Assembly: GCA_938002835.1 (NCBI GenBank)
Contig: CALKZS010000121.1
Span: forward strand, 1 to 47,596
Direction of reading: 5' to 3'
Origin: an uncultured Dokdonia sp.
Lineage (GTDB): Bacteria > Bacteroidota > Bacteroidia > Flavobacteriales > Flavobacteriaceae
Length of the DNA stretch: 47,596 nt
Position 1 is the first letter of the stretch. Each line of letters begins with the position of its first letter. Below, one piece after another: positions 10,707-46,973 of this stretch. A model generated the notes under the pieces. That model was not told the DNA's origin. It did not search any database and saw only the letters and a list, made by a program, of their open reading frames with translations. A program made the translations under genes and the position numbers.

Positions 10707-11255
10707 GTGCTTGAATTAATGCGCAAATATAAGTCTGTACTTCGATTTCTCACTATTTTTTTAGGGAGTTATTTAGTGTTTGTGACACTTTACAACCTGT
10801 ATCTTATTTATGGGAGCAGTAGTCGGTATTTTCCAGATGTGATTACACATATGGTGGCACTACAAAGTCAATCCATTATTGCAGTTTTAGGATATACAAT
10901 GGAGGTAGTTCCTAGCACCTCAGAACCAGCAATGAATCTTACTATAAATGGTACTGTTCTTGCTCGTATAGTAGAGGGATGTAATGCTATAAGTGTGATG
11001 TTACTCTTTATATCTTTTATGCTAGCTTTTTTTGGAAGTTTTAAACGCACATTCTTTTTTATACTAGGTGGTGTTGTGGTAATTTATGTGATGAACATCC
11101 TTCGTATTGCATTGCTAAGTATTGCTATTTATGAATATCCAGAGTATACAAATGTTTTACACGGCACTTTATTTCCAGCTATTATATATGGGACTGTTTT
11201 CTTACTTTGGTTTTGGTGGATAAATAACTATAAGAAACCTTCAAAAGATGTCTAA
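10707..11255 (+). CDS. xrtF: Exosortase family protein XrtF
   Basis: A 182-residue polytopic exosortase, a membrane transpeptidase that processes surface proteins with C-terminal sorting signals. The catalytic triad is visible: Cys92 in VEGCNAIS, Arg133 in NILRIALL, and His152 in LHGTLFP. Five or six membrane segments are predicted. XrtF is the short, flavobacterial type and is usually followed by the partner found here, whose start overlaps this gene by 8 bases. The start is GTG at 10707; ATG at 10719 is an equally possible start that removes four residues. No PEP-CTERM-like substrate is visible in the window. Confidence 0.9.
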   Translation: MLELMRKYKSVLRFLTIFLGSYLVFVTLYNLYLIYGSSSRYFPDVITHMVALQSQSIIAVLGYTMEVVPSTSEPAMNLTINGTVLARIVEGCNAISVMLLFISFMLAFFGSFKRTFFFILGGVVVIYVMNILRIALLSIAIYEYPEYTNVLHGTLFPAIIYGTVFLLWFWWINNYKKPSKDV

Positions 11256-11679
11256 AAGTATTCGTATTGTATTAGGATTACTTTGTCTTTTTGGGTTTAT
11301 GTTTGTACGCTTTCGCGAAAGCGTACTATTCTACGATCCACTTATAGATTATTATCACGGCGATTATCAAAATAATCCATTACCAGAGTTGTTACAAGGG
11401 AAATTATTTTTACATATAACCTTACGATATGCTTTGAATTATGTATTGTCAATGTTATTGTTGTGGATGATTTTTATGGATACACAGATCTTGAAATTTG
11501 CAAGTTTGTTTTATGTAATTGTTTTGATCATCTTGTTAATCACATTTTATGTATTACTACAAGATTATGAATATACATCACACGTATCACTGTTTTATGT
11601 GCGTAGGTTTTTGATTCAACCTTTGTTAATTCTTTTGTTAGTTCCTGCATTTTTCTATGCACGCAAGGTCAATAGCTAG
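11248..11679 (+). CDS. Exosortase F system-associated membrane protein
   Basis: A 143-residue membrane protein with about four hydrophobic segments. It matches the small family that always follows XrtF in flavobacteria: the pattern VRFRE..LFYDPLIDYYHGDY near residues 20-39 and HITLRYALNY near 55-64 are recognisable. The role is not known in detail; the family is presumed to assist the exosortase. The palindromic repeat at 11305-11326 lies inside the gene and encodes RFRESV in frame, at the end of the first helix. It overlaps xrtF by 8 bases. Confidence 0.85.
   Translation: MSKSIRIVLGLLCLFGFMFVRFRESVLFYDPLIDYYHGDYQNNPLPELLQGKLFLHITLRYALNYVLSMLLLWMIFMDTQILKFASLFYVIVLIILLITFYVLLQDYEYTSHVSLFYVRRFLIQPLLILLLVPAFFYARKVNS
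11305..11326. repeat. Palindromic repeat inside the exosortase partner gene
   Basis: A perfect 22-bp palindrome with core CTTTCGCGAAAG, read in frame as residues around FRESV of the exosortase-associated protein. Confidence 0.95.
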
Positions 11680-11712
11680 TCTCTTTTGTATTTTTGTGTA
11701 AAAATTTAAGAG

Positions 11713-12282
11713 ATGAAAACTATTATATATATCGTACTCGCATTGGCTATTTCTTCTTGTAAAGAAGATAAAAACCCTGATGTTAAAACAGCACCTGCAT
11801 ATCTAGAAGAAGCGCAAGCTGCCGCTGCTATTGGAGATCTTAATGAAACTTCAGAAACCATCGAGGTGACTTTTCAGGACGAAAAAATGACAAGTATCTA
11901 TGAAGGGTACTTAGAACTCAAAGCCGCATTAGTAAATACAAATGCTGATGATGCAGCAGATGTAGCTACAGAGTTTTCTGAGTTGCTAGCTGTTGTTGCT
12001 GGCGATGATAATGAGAGCTTTCTAGCATTGCATAATGATGTAAAAGCTGTAGCAGTATCTAAAGATGTAAAACAACAACGAGTTCTTTTTCAAAACATAA
12101 GTAATGAGGTAGAGATACTTATAAAACCAGCCATCTCAGAAGGTCAGGTTATTAAGCAGTATTGCCCAATGGCTTTTGATGGTAAAGGTGGCTACTGGTT
12201 GTCTGACTCAAGAGAAATACGCAATCCATACTTTGGAGATGTGATGCTCAAGTGTGGTGTGGTAGATAGTGATATTGAGTAA
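11713..12282 (+). CDS. DUF3347 lipoprotein, putative metal-binding
   Basis: A 189-residue lipoprotein with lipobox ISSC (Cys16). The body is helical and the C-terminus has the DUF3347 pattern KQYCPMAFDGKGGYWLSD followed by IRNPYFGDVMLKCG, with two Cys and two Met placed to bind a soft metal. DUF3347 domains occur alone or attached to copper/silver efflux adaptors, so copper or silver binding in the periplasm is likely; this is inference. It lies 33 bases downstream of the exosortase partner, perhaps cotranscribed, though no functional link to exosortase is known. Confidence 0.8.
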   Translation: MKTIIYIVLALAISSCKEDKNPDVKTAPAYLEEAQAAAAIGDLNETSETIEVTFQDEKMTSIYEGYLELKAALVNTNADDAADVATEFSELLAVVAGDDNESFLALHNDVKAVAVSKDVKQQRVLFQNISNEVEILIKPAISEGQVIKQYCPMAFDGKGGYWLSDSREIRNPYFGDVMLKCGVVDSDIE

Positions 12283-12310
12283 ATCGATATAGTTTTATTG
12301 ATGGCGAAAC

Positions 12311-12360
12311 CCTTCTTTAACTTTTATTTTTTTTAGAAAGTTGAAGAAGGTGTTTGTTTT
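12311..12360 (+). terminator. Probable terminator after the DUF3347 gene
   Basis: CCTTCTTTAACTTT (12311-12324) pairs with AAAGTTGAAGAAGG (12337-12350) with one G-U wobble, followed by a T-rich stretch. It lies 29 bases after the stop. Confidence 0.6.
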
Positions 12361-12645
12361 TTAGGTATTTACAAGTGACCAATATCAAAGGAAGAGTAAA
12401 AAATAGCTTTTGATAATAGTCTGTAATAAACTTGATTTAAAATTAACTACCTTGAATTATTAATGTTTTATAAATATCATTAATTACAATGATAGGTTCT
12501 TTAATTCCTTTAAGTTATTTTGTAACTTCAATCGTTGATGTTATACCAATCATCCCATATTTGAATACAGTATGTGAATGTGTGTTGAGGTTTATTATTT
12601 ATCAAACATCTGTTTTTTAAGTAATTAAAAAATAATGAACTATGA
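12361..12645. other. Gene-free stretch
   Basis: A+T-rich spacer between the terminator and the end of the Hint gene. I see no open reading frame of note, no RNA gene and no repeat in it. Confidence 0.5.
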
Positions 12646-13884
12646 TCAAGGTCTTGATGATGCACGCAATTTTTCAATTCCAGTAACAATACCGTTTGCT
12701 ATAAAAGTATTGTTTTTATCTAAATCAACGATGGTGTAGGTTTTCTGTGTGCCGCTAACTTCATTGATTTTTACTATTTTTAAATTGCTTTGCAGGCTTT
12801 TGATGATACTTCCAAGTTCAATTTGAACCACATTATTGATTTCATAATCAGTTTCGGTTTTCTCGGGACTCATTGAAGACCATTGTAGGGTATTTAATAA
12901 AAACGGATGGTCTTTTGTACAGGTGATTTCTGTGCCATTAGAAAATGTAATAGTTATTAGGTCTTTGTGAAGTTTACTTGCTAATTCTTTAATCACTGAA
13001 GGTTCATAATCTCCAGTCTCCTTATGGAAGGATAATATAGTGTCTCCTATTTCTAAATCTTCTATTGACTTAAGTGTATTATCTGCCATTGTTATTTGAG
13101 TTCCTTCTGCCAAGCAATGGACATCTAAACCATCAAAATAAATTTCTGTAATCGCAGTATCATCATATTTGTCACCTTCATATACAGATAGTATTTCAAA
13201 CTTTATATCCCAATTAGGAGCATTTTCGTATTTCTGGTATACATCTTCACCTAATTTTCTATCATTTCCAAGAGGTTTTTCAAGAGTAATAATTTGTTCT
13301 GCATAAATATCCTGTAATTCTATAATAGCATATGGTTCATTATTTACAGACATTTTTAGTTTATGAACTCGAGAATTGTCTTTCCAGGCTTTTTTGCTTT
13401 TAATATAGCCATTAGCAAAAAGTATAGTAGTGACTCTTGGATGTACTGGCGAGAAACTAAAATTGATAGTTTCTCCTATACCGTATCCTTTCTTTCCTTC
13501 TACCCAAGCAGTTTGATAACTGAAGTCTGCTAGATTTTTAGTCTTGTAATCTATATTTCCATTTGATGATAATTCAGATGAGGTTGTTACAGCATAATTA
13601 CCAGCACCACAATACCAACTGCAGCCACCACCATCAACCTCCCACATACTTGAGTATGTTTCTGGATATTTTTCAAAAAGGACATTATCTTCTTCTGTCA
13701 AATTATTCCAATCTTTTTTATTATTATCTATATCTTCAAATAACTGATTTCTTTTTTTCCATTCATTTTGCACCTCAATCCCAAAGTCAAAAGGGTCTCC
13801 TTTTTCTGGAATGATTGTTTTTAGATTTTGACAGTATAGATGTGCTGTTAAGAATATTAAAAGAAGGCTTATTGATAATTTCAT
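12646..13884 (-). CDS. Secreted protein with NADase-type glycan-binding domain and C-terminal Hint domain
   Basis: A 412-residue exported protein with signal peptide (residues 1-19, ending LYCQ). Residues about 85-255 resemble the discoidin-like NADase-type glycan-binding domain (WVEGKKGYGIGETINF, then FANGYIKSKKAWKDNSRV). From residue 257 a Hint (hedgehog/intein) domain follows, with HCLAEGTQITMAD as block A (Cys257 the potential nucleophile), TCTKDHPFLL as block B (Thr321, His326), and NNTFIANGIVTG near 391-402 as the end block. The canonical His-Asn dipeptide before a Cys/Ser/Thr is absent, so if it is active it likely cleaves or transfers without splicing. No mature toxin domain follows the Hint domain; the protein stops 10 residues later. 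It is monocistronic. Confidence 0.8.
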   Translation of the reverse strand: MKLSISLLLIFLTAHLYCQNLKTIIPEKGDPFDFGIEVQNEWKKRNQLFEDIDNNKKDWNNLTEEDNVLFEKYPETYSSMWEVDGGGCSWYCGAGNYAVTTSSELSSNGNIDYKTKNLADFSYQTAWVEGKKGYGIGETINFSFSPVHPRVTTILFANGYIKSKKAWKDNSRVHKLKMSVNNEPYAIIELQDIYAEQIITLEKPLGNDRKLGEDVYQKYENAPNWDIKFEILSVYEGDKYDDTAITEIYFDGLDVHCLAEGTQITMADNTLKSIEDLEIGDTILSFHKETGDYEPSVIKELASKLHKDLITITFSNGTEITCTKDHPFLLNTLQWSSMSPEKTETDYEINNVVQIELGSIIKSLQSNLKIVKINEVSGTQKTYTIVDLDKNNTFIANGIVTGIEKLRASSRP

Positions 13885-14199
13885 AATTTATGAGTTATTC
13901 AGGATATACTAATTTTTGTGTTTTTCAATCTAAGAATTATAATTGAAAAAATAATGGAGAAGTAGTTTTCAATTCTAGATAGTACAGTTCTATAAATATA
14001 TCATTTTTGGATATATAAAATTTGTTTTCTATAGGTAATATATAAAGTGTAGTAATCATATTTTTTACTTTGGAGTATTAGTTTTTAACAAAAAATTCTT
14101 TTGACACAAGGCTTTCTTAAGATGTACTTCTAAAAATGAGTAGAACTAAAACAAACTATCTATAATATATAGACAACTAGTTGTTATGATATTGCTACA
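13885..14199. other. Gene-free stretch upstream of the Hint gene
   Basis: A+T-rich DNA with no coding potential that I can see on either strand; it holds the promoter region of the Hint gene, but I could not fix a promoter. Confidence 0.5.
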
Positions 14200-14223
14200 T
14201 TAACGTGAGTTTGATATAAGAAA
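14200..14223 (+). mobile_element. Lone IS982-type terminal repeat
   Basis: The sequence ACGTGAGTTTGATATAAG (14203-14220) is the same as the left end of the IS982 element at 47029-47046 except for one base, and the match extends to 24 bp (14200-14223 against 47026-47049). No transposase and no inverted partner is found nearby, so it is a relic of a deleted or rearranged element. Confidence 0.7.
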
Positions 14224-14316
14224 ACAAAATAATTATTTGATTATTAGATGTTTTATGTCTTTGTTACTTGTTGTTTATTGAAATGTAAGTCAGATTTTTA
14301 CGTTTTTAGTTAATTA

Positions 14317-14555
14317 ACTGGTGTTACGCAATCAGAGAAGTGTTTTTTCTCATTTTAACAAAAAACTGTTGATAAGTCCCTTTTTCTTAAAAAAAAATAG
14401 CTTTTTTAATCGTTTTAGCCATTAAATATGTCAACTGTTATCTAATCGATTAATAAATCTAAGTAGACATTTATTTCTAAATTTTAGTAATCAGCAGTTT
14501 AAACACTTATTAACAACAAGGTTAAATTTTTGATGATTTAGTGCGTAACACCAGT
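14317..14555. mobile_element. MITE-like element, 239 bp with 14-bp perfect inverted repeats
   Basis: ACTGGTGTTACGCA at 14317-14330 is repeated exactly inverted at 14542-14555 (TGCGTAACACCAGT). The 211 bases between are A+T-rich and do not code. No clear target duplication is visible. The structure fits a non-autonomous element mobilised by a transposase elsewhere; an unrelated long hairpin is the alternative. Confidence 0.55.
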
Positions 14556-14850
14556 GTTTTTTATATTCTTAATTTAATTTTGTGGCAAAATGTCTTTGTT
14601 TAAAAGGAATAGGTTTTTCTTATAACTAAATATATATATCGTTTTTAATTTTTAAAATATGTCTTCATTTATATGATAAAAAATAGTTAAAAAAAAGAGA
14701 AAGGTGCTTATTTATATCAAAAAACAGATCATACGTAAATATATGATATAAAAGTTTAAAACACTCATTATGAGTTGTGTATATGTATTTCGTTTCAGCA
14801 CAAAATCTATTTGACATTTTCATTAACTCCATTTTGTTTATCTTTATAAT

Positions 14851-15267
14851 GTGAAAAATGCAATCCACAAAATAGCAGCTTTATTTTTAGCACTTCTCGT
14901 GCTAGGATCTACAATGTCTGTGAGCATTGATAAGCATTATTGTAGTGATCATCTGGTAGATGTTGCCATCTTTGGAAAAGCAACACCTTGTGCAATGGAA
15001 TTAGCACTAACAGAAAAGTATGGGTCAGAACACAATAAAACATCAGACTGTTGTCAAGATGAACATATTGTTCTTGAAGGTCAAGATGAACTTAAAATAA
15101 ATGTAGAAAATATAGATGTAGATGCTATTGTGTTTATTTCGATATTTAAAAATTCATATACACACTTATTTGAAGAAAGTGAGCAACACCTTGTTCCTTT
15201 TGATGGCTATCCGCCACCTTTAATAATACAAGATTTCTACACGCTCTATGAGCATTATTTAATTTGA
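14851..15267 (+). CDS. HYC_CC_PP family protein, probable metal-related
   Basis: A 138-residue exported protein with an N-terminal hydrophobic signal (residues 5-24). It has the three features that name the family: HYC (residues 29-31), CC (67-68) and a Pro run (121-123) before a short C-terminal tail. Cys47 is another cysteine. Such proteins are found in Bacteroidota next to heavy-metal-associated proteins and are presumed to bind or move a thiophilic metal; there is no experiment known to me. The start is GTG at 14851. It is the first gene of the metal cluster, 165 bases before the next gene. Confidence 0.85.
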   Translation: MKNAIHKIAALFLALLVLGSTMSVSIDKHYCSDHLVDVAIFGKATPCAMELALTEKYGSEHNKTSDCCQDEHIVLEGQDELKINVENIDVDAIVFISIFKNSYTHLFEESEQHLVPFDGYPPPLIIQDFYTLYEHYLI

Positions 15268-15432
15268 TACCCATACAAGGGGTATCTCACGCACTATAAA
15301 TACATTGTGAGATATCTATGGTTTGTAAAAACCACAGATGTAATGTGCTAATTATATAGCGCAATTATTAATACTCTTTCTACTAGTAGTTATAAAGTAT
15401 AATAACTGGTATAGAGATTAAAATAACTCCCA

Positions 15433-16197
15433 ATGAAACATAAAGTTATATTTTTTTTGGTATTCGCTTTCGCGAAAGCGTATGCACAGGGACCTCCCAT
15501 CACAGCAGATAAACCTATAATGTTAGGCGGTAACAGCTTTACCACAAAAACATTAGTAGAAATACGAAACAACGATCGTGGTACAGCAGTCTATGCACCT
15601 GTAATGCTTCATTACTTACCTACGTCCAACAGCTTGCTAGCACTGCATTTACCCTATATACATTATAATCTGGAAGATGCAGGAAGTGGTGGTTCTTTGG
15701 CAGATATAAAGTTGTTAGGGAAATATCAATTTTTTCGAAAAGATGGTACAGGGAAAACCTGGAGATTGGTCGCAAAAACTTTGCAAACACTTCCCACTGG
15801 AGAAGAGCTCGATTTAATAGATTTAAGTACAGGAAAGTATCAAGGCTATTATGGCATTGTTTCTGGATATGAAACTTTAAAATATGGAATATCCACAGAG
15901 GTGGGGTATAACTGGGCACCAGATAGTACGCTAGATGAGTTTAGGGTAAAATTTGGAGTAGGTTTACCATTATTAAAACCGCAATACCCAAACAAGCAAC
16001 TCAATCTCTATTTTGAGTATACCAGTTCGTGGCTCGTAGATAGAGACTGGTATCAATTATTATATGCCCAAGGTATACAATATGCATTAAAAACTGTGAC
16101 GTTTGATCTAGCAGTGCAGTTACCTTTAGTAAAAGATATACCAGAAAATAGAGCATTAAATTATAGTGTGTTTTTAGGAACACGATACACATTTTAA
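15433..16197 (+). CDS. Outer-membrane beta-barrel transporter-like protein
   Basis: A 254-residue exported protein. The signal peptide (residues 1-19, ending AYAQ) is itself partly encoded by a palindromic repeat at 15465-15480. The rest is rich in alternating aromatic/polar strands and ends in RYTF, so an outer-membrane barrel is predicted. Similar proteins in Bacteroidota are annotated as transporters next to HMA proteins. It is separated by 12 bases from the HMA gene. The substrate is unknown; a metal ion is the obvious suspicion from the neighbours. Confidence 0.7.
   Translation: MKHKVIFFLVFAFAKAYAQGPPITADKPIMLGGNSFTTKTLVEIRNNDRGTAVYAPVMLHYLPTSNSLLALHLPYIHYNLEDAGSGGSLADIKLLGKYQFFRKDGTGKTWRLVAKTLQTLPTGEELDLIDLSTGKYQGYYGIVSGYETLKYGISTEVGYNWAPDSTLDEFRVKFGVGLPLLKPQYPNKQLNLYFEYTSSWLVDRDWYQLLYAQGIQYALKTVTFDLAVQLPLVKDIPENRALNYSVFLGTRYTF
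15465..15480. repeat. Palindromic repeat encoding part of a signal peptide
   Basis: A perfect 16-bp palindrome CGCTTTCGCGAAAGCG, read in frame as AFAKA in the signal peptide of the outer-membrane protein. Confidence 0.95.
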
Positions 16198-16209
16198 AAA
16201 AAAAGAATA

Positions 16210-16839
16210 ATGAAAATTAAAGTTATACTCCTAATAATGTCCTTGTGTACAACAATAGGTATGCAAGCTCAAAAAGCAATGGATAGTTTTGAAGTGCAAG
16301 TAGATGGTTTAGGTTGTCCTTTTTGTGCTTACGGACTTGAGAAAAAGTTTAAAGAATTTAAAGGCATTAAAAAAGTGGCCATAGATATAGAAACAGGTAA
16401 TTTTTCATTTCAATATCCTGAAGAAAAGAAACTAACAATGGATGCAGTAATAAGTCAGGTAGAAAAGGCAGGCTATACACCTATTACTGCAAAAATCACA
16501 AGAGCTTCAGGTAAGATAGAAACTAAAGAAACAAATATTACAGAACTCACTTCTGAGAGTGAGATAGTAACGCAACAATTGCTTGTGGCTGGTAAATGTG
16601 AGATGTGTAAATCACGCATAGAAAATACCTCTATAAATATACCTGGAGTTACAGATGCAAGTTGGGCGGTAGATACTCGTGTACTTAAAGTCACTTTTGA
16701 TAAAAGGCAGACCACAACAGATACCATTCAAAAAACGATCGCAAATGCTGGTCACGACACAAGATCACATAAAGCCACCCAGGAAGGATATGAGCAATTA
16801 CCTGCTTGTTGTAAGTATGAACGTTTAGATCAAGAATGA
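16210..16839 (+). CDS. Exported protein with two heavy-metal-associated (HMA) domains
   Basis: A 209-residue protein with signal peptide (1-20, GMQAQ) and two HMA folds. The first has GLGCPFCAYGLEKKF (Cys36, Cys39), the second VAGKCEMCKSRIE (Cys130, Cys133). A C-terminal LPACCKYERLD adds Cys200-Cys201, a pair often seen in Bacteroidota HMA proteins. HMA domains pass Cu(I), Hg(II) or Zn(II) between proteins through the CxxC pair. The protein would do so in the periplasm, probably between the outer-membrane protein upstream and the MauE fusion downstream. The stop overlaps the next gene by 4 bases. Confidence 0.85.
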   Translation: MKIKVILLIMSLCTTIGMQAQKAMDSFEVQVDGLGCPFCAYGLEKKFKEFKGIKKVAIDIETGNFSFQYPEEKKLTMDAVISQVEKAGYTPITAKITRASGKIETKETNITELTSESEIVTQQLLVAGKCEMCKSRIENTSINIPGVTDASWAVDTRVLKVTFDKRQTTTDTIQKTIANAGHDTRSHKATQEGYEQLPACCKYERLDQE

Positions 16840-17723
16840 TGAAGTATAGAGTAGTAATAATACTTGCTAGTATAGCATTTGTAAGCTGTAAAGAAGTCCA
16901 AAAAGAAATGGCGTGGCGTCACTCAGAAACTATAGTTTTAGAGGGTATACACCCCATAGGCATTGCCCAAGGAAAAGAAGGTTTGTGGCTAAGTGATGGA
17001 GATCATAATAGAGTAGTACTTGTCAATAAAGAAGGATTGATTATGCATACAATAGATTCACTAGATAGACCTATGCATATAGATGCAAATGGTGAGGATC
17101 TAATGATTCCTCAATATGGAAATGATAAGGTTCTAATGATACATCGTGGCACATCTTCTCAAGTTAAAATAACAGATAGCTTAGATGCTCCAGCAGGAGT
17201 TTCATTTGTAAATAACGAGATCGCCCTTGCAGATTTTTATAACAATCAAATTCATTATTCGTCAAAAGGGTATTCTATAGATGATGATAATATCACTTTT
17301 GGAAAAGAAGGAAAGGCAGATGGAGATTTTTATTACCCCACAGATGTCCAAATAACCAAACATAATATTTGGGTAGCAGATGCTTATAATAATCGTGTAC
17401 AGGTTTTTGATAAAAAAGGAAATCATATAAGAACTATAGGCGAAGATCAAAAAATGAATGCAGCTACTGGAATTTATGTGTCAGAAGACACATTGTTTGT
17501 TACAGATTTTGAAAATAATCGAGTGCTTGTATTTGATCTAGAAGGTACATTTAAACAGGAGTTAACAACAGCTATTTCTAAACCCACAGATATTTTACTA
17601 GTAGATGGCACGCTGTATATAGCTAACTATAGAGGACATAATCTGGCGCTGTATACTTGGATAGAAGTACAAGATACAACATCTCAAGAAGAGCATCATC
17701 ACGACGATCACGATCATCATTAA
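16836..17723 (+). CDS. NHL-repeat beta-propeller lipoprotein with His-rich tail
   Basis: A 295-residue lipoprotein (lipobox FVSC, Cys19). Six NHL repeats can be counted, for example GLWLSDGDHNRVVLV, NIWVADAYNNRVQVFD and TLFVTDFENNRVLVFD, so a six-bladed propeller is expected. The last 13 residues (SQEEHHHDDHDHH) are a metal-binding-type tail. No catalytic motif is evident. It overlaps the HMA gene upstream, and the next gene starts 2 bases after its stop, which places it firmly in the metal operon. A scaffolding or metal-buffering role is inference. Confidence 0.85.
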   Translation: MMKYRVVIILASIAFVSCKEVQKEMAWRHSETIVLEGIHPIGIAQGKEGLWLSDGDHNRVVLVNKEGLIMHTIDSLDRPMHIDANGEDLMIPQYGNDKVLMIHRGTSSQVKITDSLDAPAGVSFVNNEIALADFYNNQIHYSSKGYSIDDDNITFGKEGKADGDFYYPTDVQITKHNIWVADAYNNRVQVFDKKGNHIRTIGEDQKMNAATGIYVSEDTLFVTDFENNRVLVFDLEGTFKQELTTAISKPTDILLVDGTLYIANYRGHNLALYTWIEVQDTTSQEEHHHDDHDHH

Positions 17724-17725
17724 TT

Positions 17726-18466
17726 ATGGAATTTATATATAAAGTACAAGGGATGACTTGTAATGGTTGTCGATCGAGTGTAGAGCAAAAACTTTCTGGA
17801 GTGATGGGAGTATCTTCTGCAACGGTTTCTCTAGAAAAAGAAGAGGCACTTCTTGAGATGACAAGTAAACTTCCTTTATTTGTCCTAAAAGAAGCATTAC
17901 CAGATAAGTATATAATTACTCCAAAATTAATGTTGGTAGGTAGTGATAAGGAGCGTGACTCTGCTTTTGCGAAAGCAAAAAAGGTCCCGTCAAAATTACT
18001 GCAACTCAAACCGTTGTTTCTCATTTTTACTTTTATAATAGGAGCTTCCATATTGCTCAATTATAAAGATGGAGACTGGCAACCCGCAATGTTAGATTTT
18101 ATGGGATTGTTTTATGTGGTGTTTAGTTTTTTTAAGTTTTTAGACCTAAAAGGATTTAAAAATAGCTTTATGATGTATGATCCTTTGGCTAAAGCAGTAC
18201 CTAGTTATGGCTGGTTATATCCTTTTATAGAGTTAGGACTAGGTATATTGTTTTTAATGCGACTACAAGTTTTTACCGCATTGGTGATCACCATAATTAT
18301 CCTGGGAATTACCACCATAGGAGTGACCAAAACATTAGTAAGTAAAAAAGAAATACAATGTGCTTGCTTAGGAACAGCTCTTAAACTCCCAATGACCAAA
18401 GCCACTTTTATAGAAAATACGATAATGATTGTAATGGCAGTGATAATGATTTTCAATGTGCTGTAA
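17726..18466 (+). CDS. HMA domain fused to MauE/DoxX-like membrane protein
   Basis: A 246-residue protein. Residues 1-65 form an HMA domain with GMTCNGC (Cys12, Cys15). A linker (77-92) contains AFAKAKK encoded by a degenerate palindromic repeat. Residues 95-246 hold four hydrophobic segments like MauE/DoxX redox-associated proteins, with CAC (Cys212, Cys214) before the last helix. I chose the ATG at 17726, two bases after the NHL stop, because the longer frame from 17657 would overlap the NHL gene and add 23 low-complexity residues without signal. The role is likely passing a metal or electrons across the inner membrane; unproved. Confidence 0.85.
   Translation: MEFIYKVQGMTCNGCRSSVEQKLSGVMGVSSATVSLEKEEALLEMTSKLPLFVLKEALPDKYIITPKLMLVGSDKERDSAFAKAKKVPSKLLQLKPLFLIFTFIIGASILLNYKDGDWQPAMLDFMGLFYVVFSFFKFLDLKGFKNSFMMYDPLAKAVPSYGWLYPFIELGLGILFLMRLQVFTALVITIIILGITTIGVTKTLVSKKEIQCACLGTALKLPMTKATFIENTIMIVMAVIMIFNVL
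17963..17976. repeat. Degenerate palindromic repeat in the HMA-MauE linker
   Basis: GCTTTTGCGAAAGC, one base away from the consensus GCTTTCGCGAAAGC, read in frame as AFAKA between two domains. Confidence 0.75.
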
Positions 18467-19419: not shown

Positions 19420-21057
<1,638 letters not shown>

Positions 21058-41145: not shown

Positions 41146-42309
41146 ATGCGTAAAATTATTCTCTCCATATTAGGAGTTTTACTAGTCGTAGCAGCTTATT
41201 TTTTTGGTCAGTTCATTATTTCTTCTAACGAAAAAAAGCGACCTAAACCTAAGAAAATCATAAAAACAGTAGTAGTAGATACTGTGAATAATAGTACAAT
41301 TCCTATAGATGTAAAGGCTCAAGGAAATCTGGTAGCACAGCGTAGAATGGAATTATATGCAGAAGTGCAAGGAGTATTACAACCTAGAAAGAAACTGTTT
41401 AAACCAGGTCAAACCTATAAAAGAGGAGAAATTCTTTTAAGTATAGACAATCAAGAATATTATGCAAGTGTTCAATCTCAAAAAAGCGCACTTTATAATG
41501 CAATCACGGCAATAATGCCAGATTTACGTTTAGATTATCCAGAAGCTTTTGAGAAGTGGCAATCGTATCTCAATAATTTTGATATAAGTAAAACTACTCC
41601 AGAATTACCAGAGATCACGAGTGAGAAAGAGCGTTATTTTATATCTGGTCGCAACATACAGACTACATATTATAATGTTAAAAACTTAGAACAAAGGCTA
41701 AGTAAATATCGTATCACAGCTCCTTTTAATGGAATACTAACAGAAGCTCTTGTCACAGAAGGTACGTTAATACGTACGGGTCAAAAACTTGGAGAATATA
41801 TTGATACAGGAAATTATGAATTAGAAGTTGCCATAGGCAAAAAATATGCAAACCTATTGCAAGTAGGAAGTGAAGTAACACTTTCTTCCGTAGAAGTAGA
41901 GAAGGAGTATGTAGGAAAAGTGATTCGTATAAATGGTAATGTAGATCAAGCTTCACAAACCATAAACGCATATATTGCAGTAAGCCATCCAGATTTGAGA
42001 GAAGGTATTTTTCTTGAAGCGGTTTTACAGGCAAAGGAAGAAAGGGATGCTTATAAGTTTAGTCGTAGTTTGTTACAGGCCAATGATCAAATATTTGTAG
42101 TAAGAGACTCTATACTTGAACTCATACCTGTACAACCTGTTTATTTTACAGATAAAGAAGTGGTGGCTAAAGGGATTCCTGAAGGAACGGTTATGATTAG
42201 TAAAATACTTTCTGGTGCTTATGAAGGTATGATTGTAAAAAAAGCTGCTCCAATGCAATCAAATGAAAAAAAGAAAACACCTCCAGTAAAAGCTAACGAA
42301 GATGCGTAA
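41146..42309 (+). CDS. RND efflux periplasmic adaptor (membrane fusion protein)
   Basis: A 387-residue HlyD/AcrA-type adaptor. An N-terminal helix (about 3-22) anchors it to the inner membrane; the barrel-sandwich domain begins with AQGNLVAQRRMELYAEVQGVL near 60-80. The helical hairpin is short. The second lipoyl half reads YRITAPFNGILTEALVTEGTLIRTGQ near 184-209. It would bridge the pump 42302 and the TolC-like channel. It overlaps the pump gene by 8 bases. Confidence 0.93.
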   Translation: MRKIILSILGVLLVVAAYFFGQFIISSNEKKRPKPKKIIKTVVVDTVNNSTIPIDVKAQGNLVAQRRMELYAEVQGVLQPRKKLFKPGQTYKRGEILLSIDNQEYYASVQSQKSALYNAITAIMPDLRLDYPEAFEKWQSYLNNFDISKTTPELPEITSEKERYFISGRNIQTTYYNVKNLEQRLSKYRITAPFNGILTEALVTEGTLIRTGQKLGEYIDTGNYELEVAIGKKYANLLQVGSEVTLSSVEVEKEYVGKVIRINGNVDQASQTINAYIAVSHPDLREGIFLEAVLQAKEERDAYKFSRSLLQANDQIFVVRDSILELIPVQPVYFTDKEVVAKGIPEGTVMISKILSGAYEGMIVKKAAPMQSNEKKKTPPVKANEDA

Positions 42310-45300
42310 AATCATTGAGTATTTTATTAGATATCACGTTGCGGTCAATGTGATTGTTCTGATGTTTTTGGTGTTTGGTGTGTTTGGAGCTTTATCTCTT
42401 AAATCTTCATTTTTTCCACTTGTAGACTCTCAAAATATTTCTATAAGTATTACCTATCCTGGGGCATCTCCTCAAGAAATAGAAGAAGGTATTGTTCTTA
42501 AGATAGAAGATAATCTTAAAGGATTAGATGGAGTAGAGAGAGTTACTTCTACCTCTAGAGAAAATGGAGGAAGTATCAATGTAGAGACTGCAAAAGGAGA
42601 GAACATAGACTTTATGTTGCTTGAGATTAAAAATGCAGTAGATAGAGTGTCTTCGTTTCCTACAGGTATGGAACCACTAGTTGTTGCAAAAGTAGAAACA
42701 GTAAGACAAACTATTTCTTTTGCAGTGAGTGGAGATAATGTACCTCTTAAAACACTTAAAGATATTGCACGACAGGTAGGAAACGATCTACGTGGTATAG
42801 ATGGAATATCGCAAATAACTATTTCAGGGTATCCCGATGAAGAGATAGAAATAGCTGTAAATCAAAACAGTCTTCTTGCTTATAATATATCTTTTGCCGA
42901 AGTGTCTCAAGCAGTAAGCAGATCTAATATATTAACCACTGGAGGAACTATAAAAACAGATGAAGAAGAATATTTGATTCGTGCAAATAATAGATCTTAT
43001 TATGGAAATGAACTTACTAATATTATTATCCGTTCTAATCTAGATGGCACCGCTATACGTCTTAAAGATGTAGCACAAGTAAGAGATCGTTTTGCAGAGA
43101 CAGCAAATGCAACTTATTTTAATGGCAATCTGTCTGTTAATATATCTATTACAAGTACCAACTCAGAAGATCTTATAGAGGCTGCCGAGTCTACAAAAGA
43201 GTATATAGAAGATTTTAATGCTAAGCACAATAATATTAGATTAAATACAATAGAAGATAGATCTACAACGCTAGTGCAACGTACAGAGCTACTTACAGAA
43301 AATGCTATTGTAGGAATGATTTTGGTACTTATTTTTCTATCCTTATTCTTAAATACACGATTAGCATTTTGGGTAGCTTTTGGTCTTCCAGTTGCTTTTC
43401 TTGGGATGTTTATGATCGCAGGATATTTTAATGTAACTATAAACGTATTATCTCTTTTTGGGATGATTATAGTAATAGGTATTTTGGTAGATGATGGGAT
43501 TGTTATTGCAGAAAATATATACCAACACTATGAACGAGGTAAAAGCCCAGTGCAAGCAGCTATAGATGGTACAATGGAAGTAATACCGCCTATTCTTTCT
43601 GCCATTATAACGACTATTCTTGCTTTTGGAATCTTTTTATTTTTAGATGGTAGAATAGGGAATTTCTTTGCAGAAGTATCTGTTATTGTAATACTTACTC
43701 TAATTGTATCTCTAGTAGAAGCACTTATTATATTACCAGCTCACCTTGCACATTCTAAAGCTCTCAAACCAGTAGACGATACACCTAAGAGTAAGATAGC
43801 TCAGGTATTTGCAAAGTTGCGACTTATCAATGAATATGGAGATCGTGTGATGCAATGGTTACGAGATAAGGTATATGCACCTATACTTCGATTTGCTCTC
43901 AACTATAAATTTCTTACTTTTTCATTTTTTATAGTATTTATTATACTATCGTTATCATTAGTTTCTAGTGGTATTATTAGGGTTGCATTTTTTCCTAGAG
44001 TTGCAAGTGATACTGTTCGCGTTACATTAAATATGCCTAATGGAACTAATGAGAAAATCACAGATAGTATTATCTCAATGATAGAACGTAAGGCTATTGA
44101 AGTAGATAAAGAACTTACTGAAAAATACTTTAAAGGAACAGATAAAAAACTAGTAGAAAATTTTATTCTCAATATAGGCCCAGGATCATCTACCGCATCA
44201 TTAAGCATCAATATGTTGCCAGGAGAAGAACGCCCTGATGAAATAACGTCTAATATTGTTACAAAAAGCTTGCGCGAAAAAGTAGGACCTATAGATGGAG
44301 TAGAAAGCCTCATATATGGCGGAGGAGGAAATTTTGGAGGTAGTCCAATATCTGTTTCTCTATTAGGTAATAATATAGAAGAATTAAAAGCAGTAAAAAA
44401 AGCCTTAAAACAAAACTTAGAGCAAAATCAGTTACTAAAAGATGTTGCAGATAATGATCCTGCAGGAATAAAAGAAATACGATTAGAACTTAAAGAAAGT
44501 GCATATGCATTAGGACTGTCTTTAACAGATGTAATGTTTCAAGTGCGTTCTGGATTTTTTGGAACACAAGCACAACGATTTCAACGAGGTCAAGATGAAA
44601 TAAGAGTATGGGTTCGTTATGATAGAGAAGGAAGATCCTCTATTACAAATCTAGAAGGGATGCTTATACTTACTCCATCTGGAAGTAGAGTACCATTACA
44701 GGAGATAGCATCCTATAGTATAGAACGTGGAGATGTAGCCATAAATCACCTAGAAGGAAGGCGTGAGATACAAGTAAGTGCAGATATAAAGGATGTAAAA
44801 ACAACGAGTGAAGTAGATGTAATGTTGGACATACAAAATAATGTGATGCCAGATATACTTTCTCAATATCCTTCTGTAGCACCATCTTATGAAGGTCAAA
44901 ATAGGGAGCGTAAAAAACTTACAGATTCATTAGGCCCAGTAGGTCTTGTAGTATTAGCTTTAATATATATAGTAATAGCTTTTACTTTTAGAAGTTATAG
45001 TCAGCCATTAATGCTCATTTTATTAATACCATTAAGTCTTCCTGCCGTAGCTATAGGACATTGGATACACAGTTTTTCTATTAATATATTATCGTTGTTA
45101 GGAATAATTGCACTTATAGGTATTATGGTTAATGATGGCCTTGTTCTTATAGGGAAGTTTAATACTAATTTGAGAAATGGGATGACATTTGATGATGCAA
45201 TTTTTGATGCAGGAAAATCTCGTTTTAGGGCTATTTTCTTAACTTCTATAACTACTATTGCAGGTCTGGCTCCACTTATATTTGAGACGAGCAGACAAGC

Positions 45301-45571
45301 ACAGTTTTTAATCCCAATGGCAATTGCTATAGCTTATGGAATTGGATTTGCAACGGTATTGACATTAGTTGTACTCCCTATTTTCTTATCATTCAGTAAT
45401 TGGATAAAAGCAAATATAAAGTGGCTTATTACTGGTAAGGACGTATCTCCTGAAGAAGTAGAAAGAGCTATAAAAGAACAAAAAGAAGAAGAATACCAAA
45501 ATCTCCCAAACATTGCAATGACAGAGAATCAAGTAAATAAAGATGACATAAAATCATTATATGATGTATAA
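42302..45571 (+). CDS. RND family efflux pump, inner-membrane subunit
   Basis: A 1089-residue AcrB-type transporter with 12 transmembrane helices and two large periplasmic loops. The proton relay motif GILVDDGIVIAEN is in helix 4 at about residue 395-408, and the helix 10-11 GIMVNDGLVLIGKF is also conserved. The C-terminal half contains LMLILLIPLSLPAVAIGHW. A single aspartate pair DD in helix 4, as in the hydrophobe/amphiphile RND subfamily, points to drug, lipid or detergent export rather than a metal. Substrate unknown. Flanked by its adaptor and outer-membrane channel. Confidence 0.95.
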   Translation: MRKIIEYFIRYHVAVNVIVLMFLVFGVFGALSLKSSFFPLVDSQNISISITYPGASPQEIEEGIVLKIEDNLKGLDGVERVTSTSRENGGSINVETAKGENIDFMLLEIKNAVDRVSSFPTGMEPLVVAKVETVRQTISFAVSGDNVPLKTLKDIARQVGNDLRGIDGISQITISGYPDEEIEIAVNQNSLLAYNISFAEVSQAVSRSNILTTGGTIKTDEEEYLIRANNRSYYGNELTNIIIRSNLDGTAIRLKDVAQVRDRFAETANATYFNGNLSVNISITSTNSEDLIEAAESTKEYIEDFNAKHNNIRLNTIEDRSTTLVQRTELLTENAIVGMILVLIFLSLFLNTRLAFWVAFGLPVAFLGMFMIAGYFNVTINVLSLFGMIIVIGILVDDGIVIAENIYQHYERGKSPVQAAIDGTMEVIPPILSAIITTILAFGIFLFLDGRIGNFFAEVSVIVILTLIVSLVEALIILPAHLAHSKALKPVDDTPKSKIAQVFAKLRLINEYGDRVMQWLRDKVYAPILRFALNYKFLTFSFFIVFIILSLSLVSSGIIRVAFFPRVASDTVRVTLNMPNGTNEKITDSIISMIERKAIEVDKELTEKYFKGTDKKLVENFILNIGPGSSTASLSINMLPGEERPDEITSNIVTKSLREKVGPIDGVESLIYGGGGNFGGSPISVSLLGNNIEELKAVKKALKQNLEQNQLLKDVADNDPAGIKEIRLELKESAYALGLSLTDVMFQVRSGFFGTQAQRFQRGQDEIRVWVRYDREGRSSITNLEGMLILTPSGSRVPLQEIASYSIERGDVAINHLEGRREIQVSADIKDVKTTSEVDVMLDIQNNVMPDILSQYPSVAPSYEGQNRERKKLTDSLGPVGLVVLALIYIVIAFTFRSYSQPLMLILLIPLSLPAVAIGHWIHSFSINILSLLGIIALIGIMVNDGLVLIGKFNTNLRNGMTFDDAIFDAGKSRFRAIFLTSITTIAGLAPLIFETSRQAQFLIPMAIAIAYGIGFATVLTLVVLPIFLSFSNWIKANIKWLITGKDVSPEEVERAIKEQKEEEYQNLPNIAMTENQVNKDDIKSLYDV

Positions 45572-45584
45572 CTTTTCTTATATA

Positions 45585-46973
45585 ATGATATCAAAAAAGG
45601 AGTGTTACGTTTTCGCGAAAGCATATATAATATCTCCTCTCTGTATATTGATGTTTATTGTAACAACAAGTCTTTGTGCACAAGAGGCAAGCATAGGAGT
45701 ATTGTCTAAAAAAGAGGCAATGCAGCAAATGCTAGAAAATAATTTTGGGATACAAGTCACAGAAAAAAATATCGAAATTGCAGAAAACAATGCAGATATC
45801 TTAAACTCAAGATATTTACCTTCTGTTTTTGGCCTTGCTGGAGCAAACTGGGATAGAACTTCAAGTGTTACAGATTTTAGTGCAGATGAAAATGGTAATG
45901 TTAGAGAAGCAAACATTATTAATGGTGCAGAGACAACGCGTTATAATGCTTCTATTAATATAGACTGGACACTCTTTGATGGTTTAAATAGATACTATAG
46001 TTACAAGCAATTAAAAGAACGATATAATCTCACGCAATTAGAAGCAAGAGAAACTATAGAAATCACGACAACACAACTTTTTAGTGTGTATTATGAAGTG
46101 GCTAGGCTTCAGGAAAATATTGTAAACCTTGAAGAAGCTCTTGCGATATCACAAAGAAGGTTATTGAGAGCAGAATATCAATTTGAGTATGGACAGGTAA
46201 ATAAACTAGAAATTCTTAATGCAGAGGTAGATATAGTGACAGATAGTACTAATATATTAAACGCACGTCAGAGCTTGCGAAATGTACAACGTGATCTCAA
46301 CGTTGTATTAGCACGTGAAATAGAAGATTTAAAAAGAGTAGATACCACAGTAACCTTTGTAAGTCCTTTATTGATAGATAGCTATATAGAGAAAGCTACA
46401 GAAAACAATGTAAGTCTTCTTCAAGCAGAACAAAATATTATACTCTCTAATTATGACCGTAAGATCGCAAAAGGACTTTTTCTTCCCACGATAGGTCTTA
46501 CTGGAAGTTATGGCTGGAATAGATCTAACAATCCTGCAAGTGCTTTTTTTCCCAGCACAACTAATAATTCTGATGGACTTTCTGCTGGAGCAAGCTTACG
46601 TTGGAATCTCTTTAACGGAGGTACATCTGTCACGTCTATAAAAAATGCAAAGATTAATTTAGAATCTCAAGAGCTTCTCAAAAAGCAGCTTACACAAGAA
46701 ATGAAACGAGATATTGCAAATGCTTTAGGGAATTATAAAAATGCACTTACGATCTATCATTTACAAGAAAAAAATGTAGCAACAAGTAAAGCAAACTTTG
46801 ATAGATCTAATGAACGTTTTAAATTAGGTCAGGTTACTAGCATTGAGTTTAGACAAGCGCAGCTTAATTTGTTAAATGCGCAAACTGCAAAAAATGCAGC
46901 AAAGTACACTGCTAAACTTGCAGAAATAAATCTACTACAACTCACTGGGCAGTTGCTCAATGTAGATTTTTAA
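45585..46973 (+). CDS. TolC-like outer-membrane efflux channel
   Basis: An outer-membrane factor of about 462 residues with an N-terminal signal region (VTTSLCAQ) and two OEP repeats typical of TolC. Segments such as LRAEYQFEYGQVNKLEILNAEVD and RFKLGQVTSIEFRQAQLNLLNAQTA are the helical repeats. ATG at 45585 is taken, since ATG at 45561 overlaps the pump gene and adds residues without any signal. A degenerate palindromic repeat (45607-45622) encodes YVFAKAY inside the signal peptide, making it unusually long. The third part of the RND operon. Confidence 0.92.
   Translation: MISKKECYVFAKAYIISPLCILMFIVTTSLCAQEASIGVLSKKEAMQQMLENNFGIQVTEKNIEIAENNADILNSRYLPSVFGLAGANWDRTSSVTDFSADENGNVREANIINGAETTRYNASINIDWTLFDGLNRYYSYKQLKERYNLTQLEARETIEITTTQLFSVYYEVARLQENIVNLEEALAISQRRLLRAEYQFEYGQVNKLEILNAEVDIVTDSTNILNARQSLRNVQRDLNVVLAREIEDLKRVDTTVTFVSPLLIDSYIEKATENNVSLLQAEQNIILSNYDRKIAKGLFLPTIGLTGSYGWNRSNNPASAFFPSTTNNSDGLSAGASLRWNLFNGGTSVTSIKNAKINLESQELLKKQLTQEMKRDIANALGNYKNALTIYHLQEKNVATSKANFDRSNERFKLGQVTSIEFRQAQLNLLNAQTAKNAAKYTAKLAEINLLQLTGQLLNVDF
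45607..45622. repeat. Degenerate palindromic repeat in the TolC signal region
   Basis: ACGTTTTCGCGAAAGC, one base off consensus on the left, read in frame as VFAKA inside the signal peptide. Confidence 0.8.

Follow-up and report, generated by a model that had tools for sequence, protein, structure and literature searches.

Bacterial copper efflux is usually told as the work of CopA plus Cus or Pco. In the Pco/Cop systems (PcoA, B, C, and D), a small outer-membrane barrel, a periplasmic carrier, and an inner-membrane copper protein are encoded in one operon. MauE has a role in the maturation of methylamine dehydrogenase. Here, we studied a stretch of 47,596 nucleotides (contig CALKZS010000121.1, assembly GCA_938002835.1) from an uncultured Dokdonia sp. 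(Flavobacteriaceae), referred to below as the window, which is one contig of a host genome of 3.1 megabases that is 93% complete. At positions 14851–18466, five genes on the plus strand encode, in order, an HYC_CC_PP protein (HYC), an outer-membrane barrel, a secreted double-HMA protein (HMA2), an NHL propeller, and an inner-membrane fusion of an HMA and a MauE domain (HMA-MauE). This order is a module and not an accident of one genome, because it recurs in dozens of genomes. We propose, at a probability of roughly 0.55, that the module is an envelope relay for the export or detoxification of a soft metal, most likely Cu(I).

The five-gene order recurs across genomes

The gaps between the five genes of the window are 165, 12, −4, and 2 bases, in order. 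A preliminary description of the window had reported a row on one strand with spacings of 12, −4, and 2 bases for the last four genes, and the reading frames agree with this exactly. The frame of HMA-MauE is listed from a TTG at 17657, an ATG is found at 17726, and the frame ends at 18466.

A scan of named genomes returned 147 barrel relatives, and loci were drawn from the best 80 of the 147. The set of 91 loci compared here omits L113, L114, L125, L140, L154, and L163 (judged to duplicate contigs of other loci), as well as L092 (a weak barrel match) and L064 (a broken barrel); genes were called simply as longest frames and labeled with small hidden Markov models built from a few loci. The HYC gene lies directly upstream of the barrel gene in 77/91 loci, and an HMA gene lies directly downstream in 86/91, with the NHL gene next in 79/91. 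Median gaps along the module are 75, 19, and 1 bases (each start taken from the longest frame). Its carriers are marine Bacteroidota (Flavobacteriaceae and Saprospiraceae/Chitinophagales), and the nearest row to the window barrel in the barrel tree is an uncultured Dokdonia.

Co-occurrence in other genomes had been set beforehand as a test of the cluster, and the families proved to be tightly linked in the 91 loci. Of 149 genomes of the family, one per genus, 15 have the NHL protein. The barrel was found in 12 of these 15 and in no others, so that it occurs only alongside NHL (12/12), and in these 12 genomes the two genes share the fetched loci. The match in one of the three NHL-only genomes (G112) is at a contig end. 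In the phylum, seven of 395 genomes have a strong NHL match, accompanied by the barrel in 7/7, and the barrel also occurs without a strong NHL match in two further genomes: in G167 it lies in a mer cluster, and in G498 the match is weak. Another seven NHL matches, of lesser strength (E 1e-15 to 1e-24), are not accompanied by a barrel and probably represent other propellers; at most six candidates per genome were scored in the phylum searches, so absences there are weak.

HMA-MauE shares its operon slot with copper ATPases

HMA-MauE (17726–18466, plus strand) matches the HMA model at 38.4 bits (cut-off 24.8) and the MauE model PF07291 at 58.4 bits (cut-off 27). These are its only Pfam matches at E 0.1, with no E1-E2 ATPase domain among them. 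Its cysteines form a CxxC and a CxC motif and are nearly invariant (C12 57/58, C15 58/58, C212 58/58, and C214 57/58). The MauE CxC is common to the fused form (58 and 57 of 58) and the unfused form (30/30), whereas seven methionines (M122, M126, M150, M223, M234, M237, and M241) are present in 53–57 of the 58 fused proteins vs. 0–2 of the 30 unfused MauE domains compared, which come from genomes of the same family (best matches in 60 genomes, with one locus per genome). Methionines at intervals of three or four residues along a membrane helix are reminiscent of the methionine paths of Ctr1 and CusA. Hydropathy gives four clear membrane segments by script and a fifth, at about 162–180, by eye. 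With five segments, the CxC loop would be cytoplasmic like the HMA domain, and with four, it would face the periplasm; the counts of Lys and Arg favor five.

Across the 91 loci, the slot after NHL is occupied by HMA-MauE in 26, by a Cu-type P1B ATPase in 12, by an ArsP_1-type permease in five, and by a TonB receptor in one. The rest have another same-strand gene (21) or an opposite-strand gene (16), or NHL is not in place (10, contig ends included). Of the 12 ATPases in the slot, 11 are full length, with CPC in all 11, and the copy in L137 is a 77-residue fragment. The L051 ATPase, the single one scored against NCBIfam, reaches 589 bits with TIGR01511 (cut-off 397), and the L053 permease is over the ArsP_1 cut-off.

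The two alternatives are also complementary between genomes. With one genome per genus, Cu ATPases counted over the cut-off, lists copied by hand, and kinship between genera uncorrected, the 149 genera comprise 26 with both genes, 33 with HMA-MauE only, 69 with the Cu ATPase only, and 21 with neither (odds ratio 0.24, Fisher p 1e-4). Restriction to 115 genomes that are ≥95% complete gives 26, 23, 60, and 6, respectively (odds ratio 0.11, p 7e-6), and when genomes under 2.5 megabases are also removed as a guard against streamlining (n = 105) the numbers become 26, 17, 58, and 4 (odds ratio 0.11, p 4e-5). In the host genome, no P1B ATPase (TIGR01511) match was found at E 1e-30, and its three HMA domains all lie within this cluster.

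Some HMA-MauE genes lie in loci without the barrel, 20 of which were picked by hand. HYC, MauE, a TonB receptor, and HMAb (the second HMA domain type of HMA2) are found together in 13/20, one of them in a differing order, and CusA, CusB, or CusC genes occur in 6/20 (e.g., L068, L074, and L075); L083 has neither arrangement. In the TonB receptors paired with HMAb, a CC motif and five His are invariant in all 24 aligned receptors (L054, L057, L063, L066, L069–L073, L076–L081, L084, L114, L115, L117, L120, L121, L124, L127, and L137, of which L054 and L114 are the same contig), making this protein a candidate soft-metal receptor. Short AraC-type regulators were seen near HMA-MauE or the module (L157:6964–7614, L162:1056–1616, and L083:6141–6698). 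Those in L083 and L157 adjoin HMA-MauE. The short regulators have, by eye, a CxxC near the start; the HMA model finds no match in them. The host genome holds a relative at 37% identity (G000:C145:1747–2235).

Outer-membrane and periplasmic proteins of the module

The barrel (15433–16197, plus strand) matches no Pfam or NCBIfam model; PF13557 is weakly matched by 4/11 of its relatives (best E 1.8e-5) and not by the window protein. Its AlphaFold2 model has 12 strands at a predicted local distance difference test (pLDDT) score of 89.4. The nearest structures are FapF (5o65) and COG4313 (4rl8), at Z 23.5 (VIA) and a root-mean-square deviation of 2.0–2.3 over 215–217 residues; PcoB (7pge) stands in the same VIA list at rank 40 (Z 13.7), among many other barrels. 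The mature N-terminus, QGPPIT, is strongly conserved, and residues 21–34 precede the first strand of the model. The COG4313 structure is described as having its N-terminus inside the lumen (PMC4493636), which fits the conserved mature N-terminus of the module barrel.

Three barrel residues stand out, M58 (85/98), H60 (87/98), and H72 (85/98), with codons in 15604–15648 (plus strand). They probably lie in the lumen of the modeled barrel, because their even-parity positions in strands 50–62 and 67–80 are on the face opposite the hydrophobic residues; given a periplasmic N-terminus, they would be near the periplasmic mouth. All three are kept in 76/91 barrels. They are changed in 8/10 loci without HMAb vs. 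7/77 with it (four more loci are undetermined); the changes fall in few clades, and a coupling of these changes to the loss of HMAb is only a lead.

The residue counts for HYC, the barrel, HMA2, and NHL include duplicate contigs. HYC (14851–15267, plus strand; NF047658 at 106 bits, cut-off 28) is probably periplasmic and has H29, C31, C67, and C68 in 100/100 sequences and C47 in 98/100. HMA2 (16210–16839, plus strand; PF00403 at 63.8 bits, cut-off 24.8) combines HMAa (CPFC) and HMAb (CxMC ... H ... CC), with HMA stretches at 16294–16479 and 16597–16758. C36 and C39 are found in 93/93 proteins, C130 in 82/93, and C133 in 81/93. The NHL protein (16836–17723, plus strand; PF01436 at 67.9 bits, cut-off 20) is a lipoprotein by its lipobox, and C18, P79, M80, and H81 are invariant (87/87). 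Its predicted structure is a six-blade propeller (pLDDT 94.7), nearest in fold to TRIM-NHL domains (Z 33.3 to the Thin NHL domain, 6xg7), with Pizza designs and PAL (3fvz, a fold relative at Z 29.4) behind. A PAL-type zinc site, on the ligand pattern of PAL, was considered for this propeller as a possibility. A His-rich tail of NHL, to which the preliminary description had drawn attention, is present in 12/87 proteins and is incidental; we rejected it as a metal site. The invariant Cys, His, and Met of the module proteins are compatible with the binding of a soft metal.

Mercury and copper contexts

Six barrels form a single clade (support 100/100) far from the remaining barrels, and MerT-like genes are found in all six of their loci (the mer clade). 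MerA-like genes occur in four of these loci (L061, L062, L090, and L091) and beside the broken copy L064, and in no other compared locus; the L062 MerA is over the curated cut-off. In these six loci, neither an HYC gene nor a second HMA domain in the HMAa protein was found, and M58/H60/H72 are changed in all six barrels. With MerT and MerA beside a barrel whose residues are altered, the outer-membrane core therefore serves at least two metal contexts. Neither the window barrel nor that of L062 had a match among 72,556 plasmid records, which were searched for signs of plasmid spread.

On the copper side, L159 has, just upstream of the module, an MbnP gene (over the Pfam cut-off and under the NCBIfam cut-off) and two MbnH-like di-heme genes (245–296 bits vs. 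a cut-off of 363). MbnP and MbnH are described in PMC3621798 as a gene pair with an unclear role in copper homeostasis. The neighbors that alternate with or accompany the module encode proteins of copper or mercury handling, namely Cu-type P1B ATPases, Cus-type genes, MerT/MerA, and MbnP/MbnH-like genes. Among the five proteins of the window itself, no MerA or MerT was found (the MerT/MerP-type matches of HMA2 and HMA-MauE are their HMA parts and are under cut-off), no CusA, CusB, or CusC was found with Pfam and NCBIfam, and none matches a multicopper oxidase model. The preliminary description had likewise noted that MerR- or ArsR-like regulators, a P-type ATPase, and CusAB are absent from the cluster, and none was seen in the tested genes of the interval 11248–18466.

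Neighboring features in the window

The same description gave the five genes correctly and missed a DUF3347 gene (11713–12282, plus strand; PF11827 at 43.1 bits, cut-off 25.5), which is a possible further, outlying member of the module. In the window it is set apart from HYC by an opposite-strand gene (12646–13884). A DUF3347-type gene lies directly upstream of HYC in L051, L063, L081, and L139 and directly upstream of NHL in L060. In the protein of the opposite-strand gene, an NAD-glycohydrolase translocation F5/8 domain (PF25302 at 178 bits) is accompanied by an AXH match that passes its cut-off and by Hint/intein-like matches that do not; the gene's place between DUF3347 and HYC is empty in L051, L063, and L139. 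Further out, an exosortase F-associated gene (11248–11679) upstream and GroEL (19420–21051) downstream frame many metal clusters of differing content.

A palindrome, GCTTTCGCGAAAGC, has 10 matches at ≤1 mismatch in the window, and shuffling expects none. Its sites are 7149, 11309, 15466, 17963, 21125, 28856, 37999, 40981, 45609, and 46984; two copies are inside reading frames of the cluster. An RND triad at 41146–46973 was considered as a component of the system and rejected, multidrug models being its nearest matches, with scores under their cut-offs.

Proposed pathway and alternative explanations

The envelope path for copper or another thiophilic metal that the preliminary description had put forward draws support from the linkage in 91 loci, the copper and mercury neighbors, and the invariant Cys, His, and Met; for the pathway itself, we infer the identity of the metal, its binding sites, the membrane sides, the transport and its direction, and the order of hand-over. 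HMA-MauE in the inner membrane would move Cu(I) out of the cytoplasm, replacing the CopA ATPase. Periplasmic HMA2, aided by the Cys-rich HYC and the NHL lipoprotein, would then carry the metal to the barrel, with NHL as a putative outer-membrane-anchored partner or scaffold whose M80 and H81 are candidate ligands. The 12-strand barrel would be the exit, with its Met/His cluster in the lumen near the periplasmic end, and the metal would leave the cell. Export is favored over import because HMA-MauE alternates with exporters and because of the Cus and mer contexts.

Several observations weigh against such an export relay. HMA-MauE is without an ATPase domain to supply a driving force. It occurs together with a Cu ATPase in 26 genomes, and six well-assembled genomes have neither. 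Within the genus of the window, 7/18 genomes have a Cu ATPase over the cut-off and 3/18 have no match; with the host genome 93% complete, the absence of the ATPase there may be a gap. A recognized inner-membrane partner adjoining NHL is missing from many loci, chiefly those of Saprospiraceae (the 21 and 16 loci with other genes in the slot), and M58, H60, or H72 is altered in nine barrels outside the mer clade too. TonB receptors, MbnP/MbnH, and MerT are parts of uptake or acquisition, so inward flow is possible. Further, COG4313 proteins are implicated in the uptake of hydrophobic molecules in PMC4493636.

If flow were inward, the module would serve copper acquisition, in which the barrel or a TonB receptor imports copper, HMA2, HYC, and NHL receive it in the periplasm, and HMA-MauE feeds the cytoplasm or cuproenzymes. 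The TonB receptors of the barrel-less loci with their invariant CC, the MbnP/MbnH-like genes of L159, and the importer MerT in the mer clade are what such a system would lead one to expect; the complementarity of HMA-MauE with Cu-exporting ATPases across genera and in the same operon slot, the Cus-type context, and the detoxifying mer context all speak for the opposite direction, and we consider acquisition unlikely. We give less credence still to a device for thiol/disulfide chemistry or cuproenzyme maturation, with MauE keeping the cysteines of HYC and HMA2 reduced, NHL as a scaffold, and transport left to other proteins: It would account for the CxC shared by fused and unfused MauE and for the Cys-rich HYC and HMA2, but the seven methionines mark the HMA-fused form, and a swap for Cu ATPases and ArsP permeases is unexpected of a redox partner. 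That the genes are chance neighbors at a conserved site without joint function, as the frame of exosortase F-associated gene and GroEL around many copies might suggest, is very improbable, given that intact modules are also found in loci with neither frame gene in view, among Saprospiraceae and (minus HYC) inside mer clusters.

Tentatively, and with less confidence than we place in the relay itself, HMA-MauE could be an ATP-independent class of Cu(I) transporter (an HMA domain, a MauE redox protein, and a methionine ladder) that replaces CopA in many Bacteroidota and that forms, with the COG4313-type barrel, the double-HMA protein, and NHL, a modular outer-membrane soft-metal route retuned for copper and mercury. 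A copper transporter of the MauE type would be new, and in some species the module may replace the usual copper pump. If true, bacterial copper handling would gain a class of transporter and a way out or in through the outer membrane, and the HYC_CC_PP, HMA-MauE, and barrel families would gain a role. The existence of one barrel in a copper and a mercury version would then be a natural experiment on how metal choice is encoded.

Comparison with known systems

We did not find a description of the module among the listed titles and opening abstract lines of open-licence literature, and it may be in print elsewhere. An inventory of copper genes in a different flavobacterium (PMC11213822) mentions neither MauE nor NHL in its main text.

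The barrel shares its 12-strand fold with COG4313 and FapF at 12–16% identity; the QGPPIT N-terminus and M58/H60/H72 are features of the module barrel. HMA-MauE has the MauE domain of MauE/BT_3928 proteins, with CxC-x-G, and differs from them in its N-terminal HMA domain and seven added methionines. With the CopA P1B-1 ATPase it shares an N-terminal HMA domain, the slot after NHL (in 12/91 loci), and a complementary distribution among genomes, but it is without the ATPase domain. The mer operon (MerT/MerP/MerA, or a MerTP fusion) is similar in pairing an HMA carrier with a small membrane protein to handle a thiophilic metal, and one clade of barrel, HMA, and NHL genes lies within mer clusters; the window cluster differs in having no MerA or MerT, in the methionines of HMA-MauE, and in the M58/H60/H72 that are changed in the mer clade. 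The likeness to Pco/Cop is one of layout, with a barrel, a carrier, and an inner-membrane protein encoded together, whereas the module uses a barrel closer in fold to COG4313 than to PcoB, an HMA carrier, an NHL propeller, and HMA-MauE.

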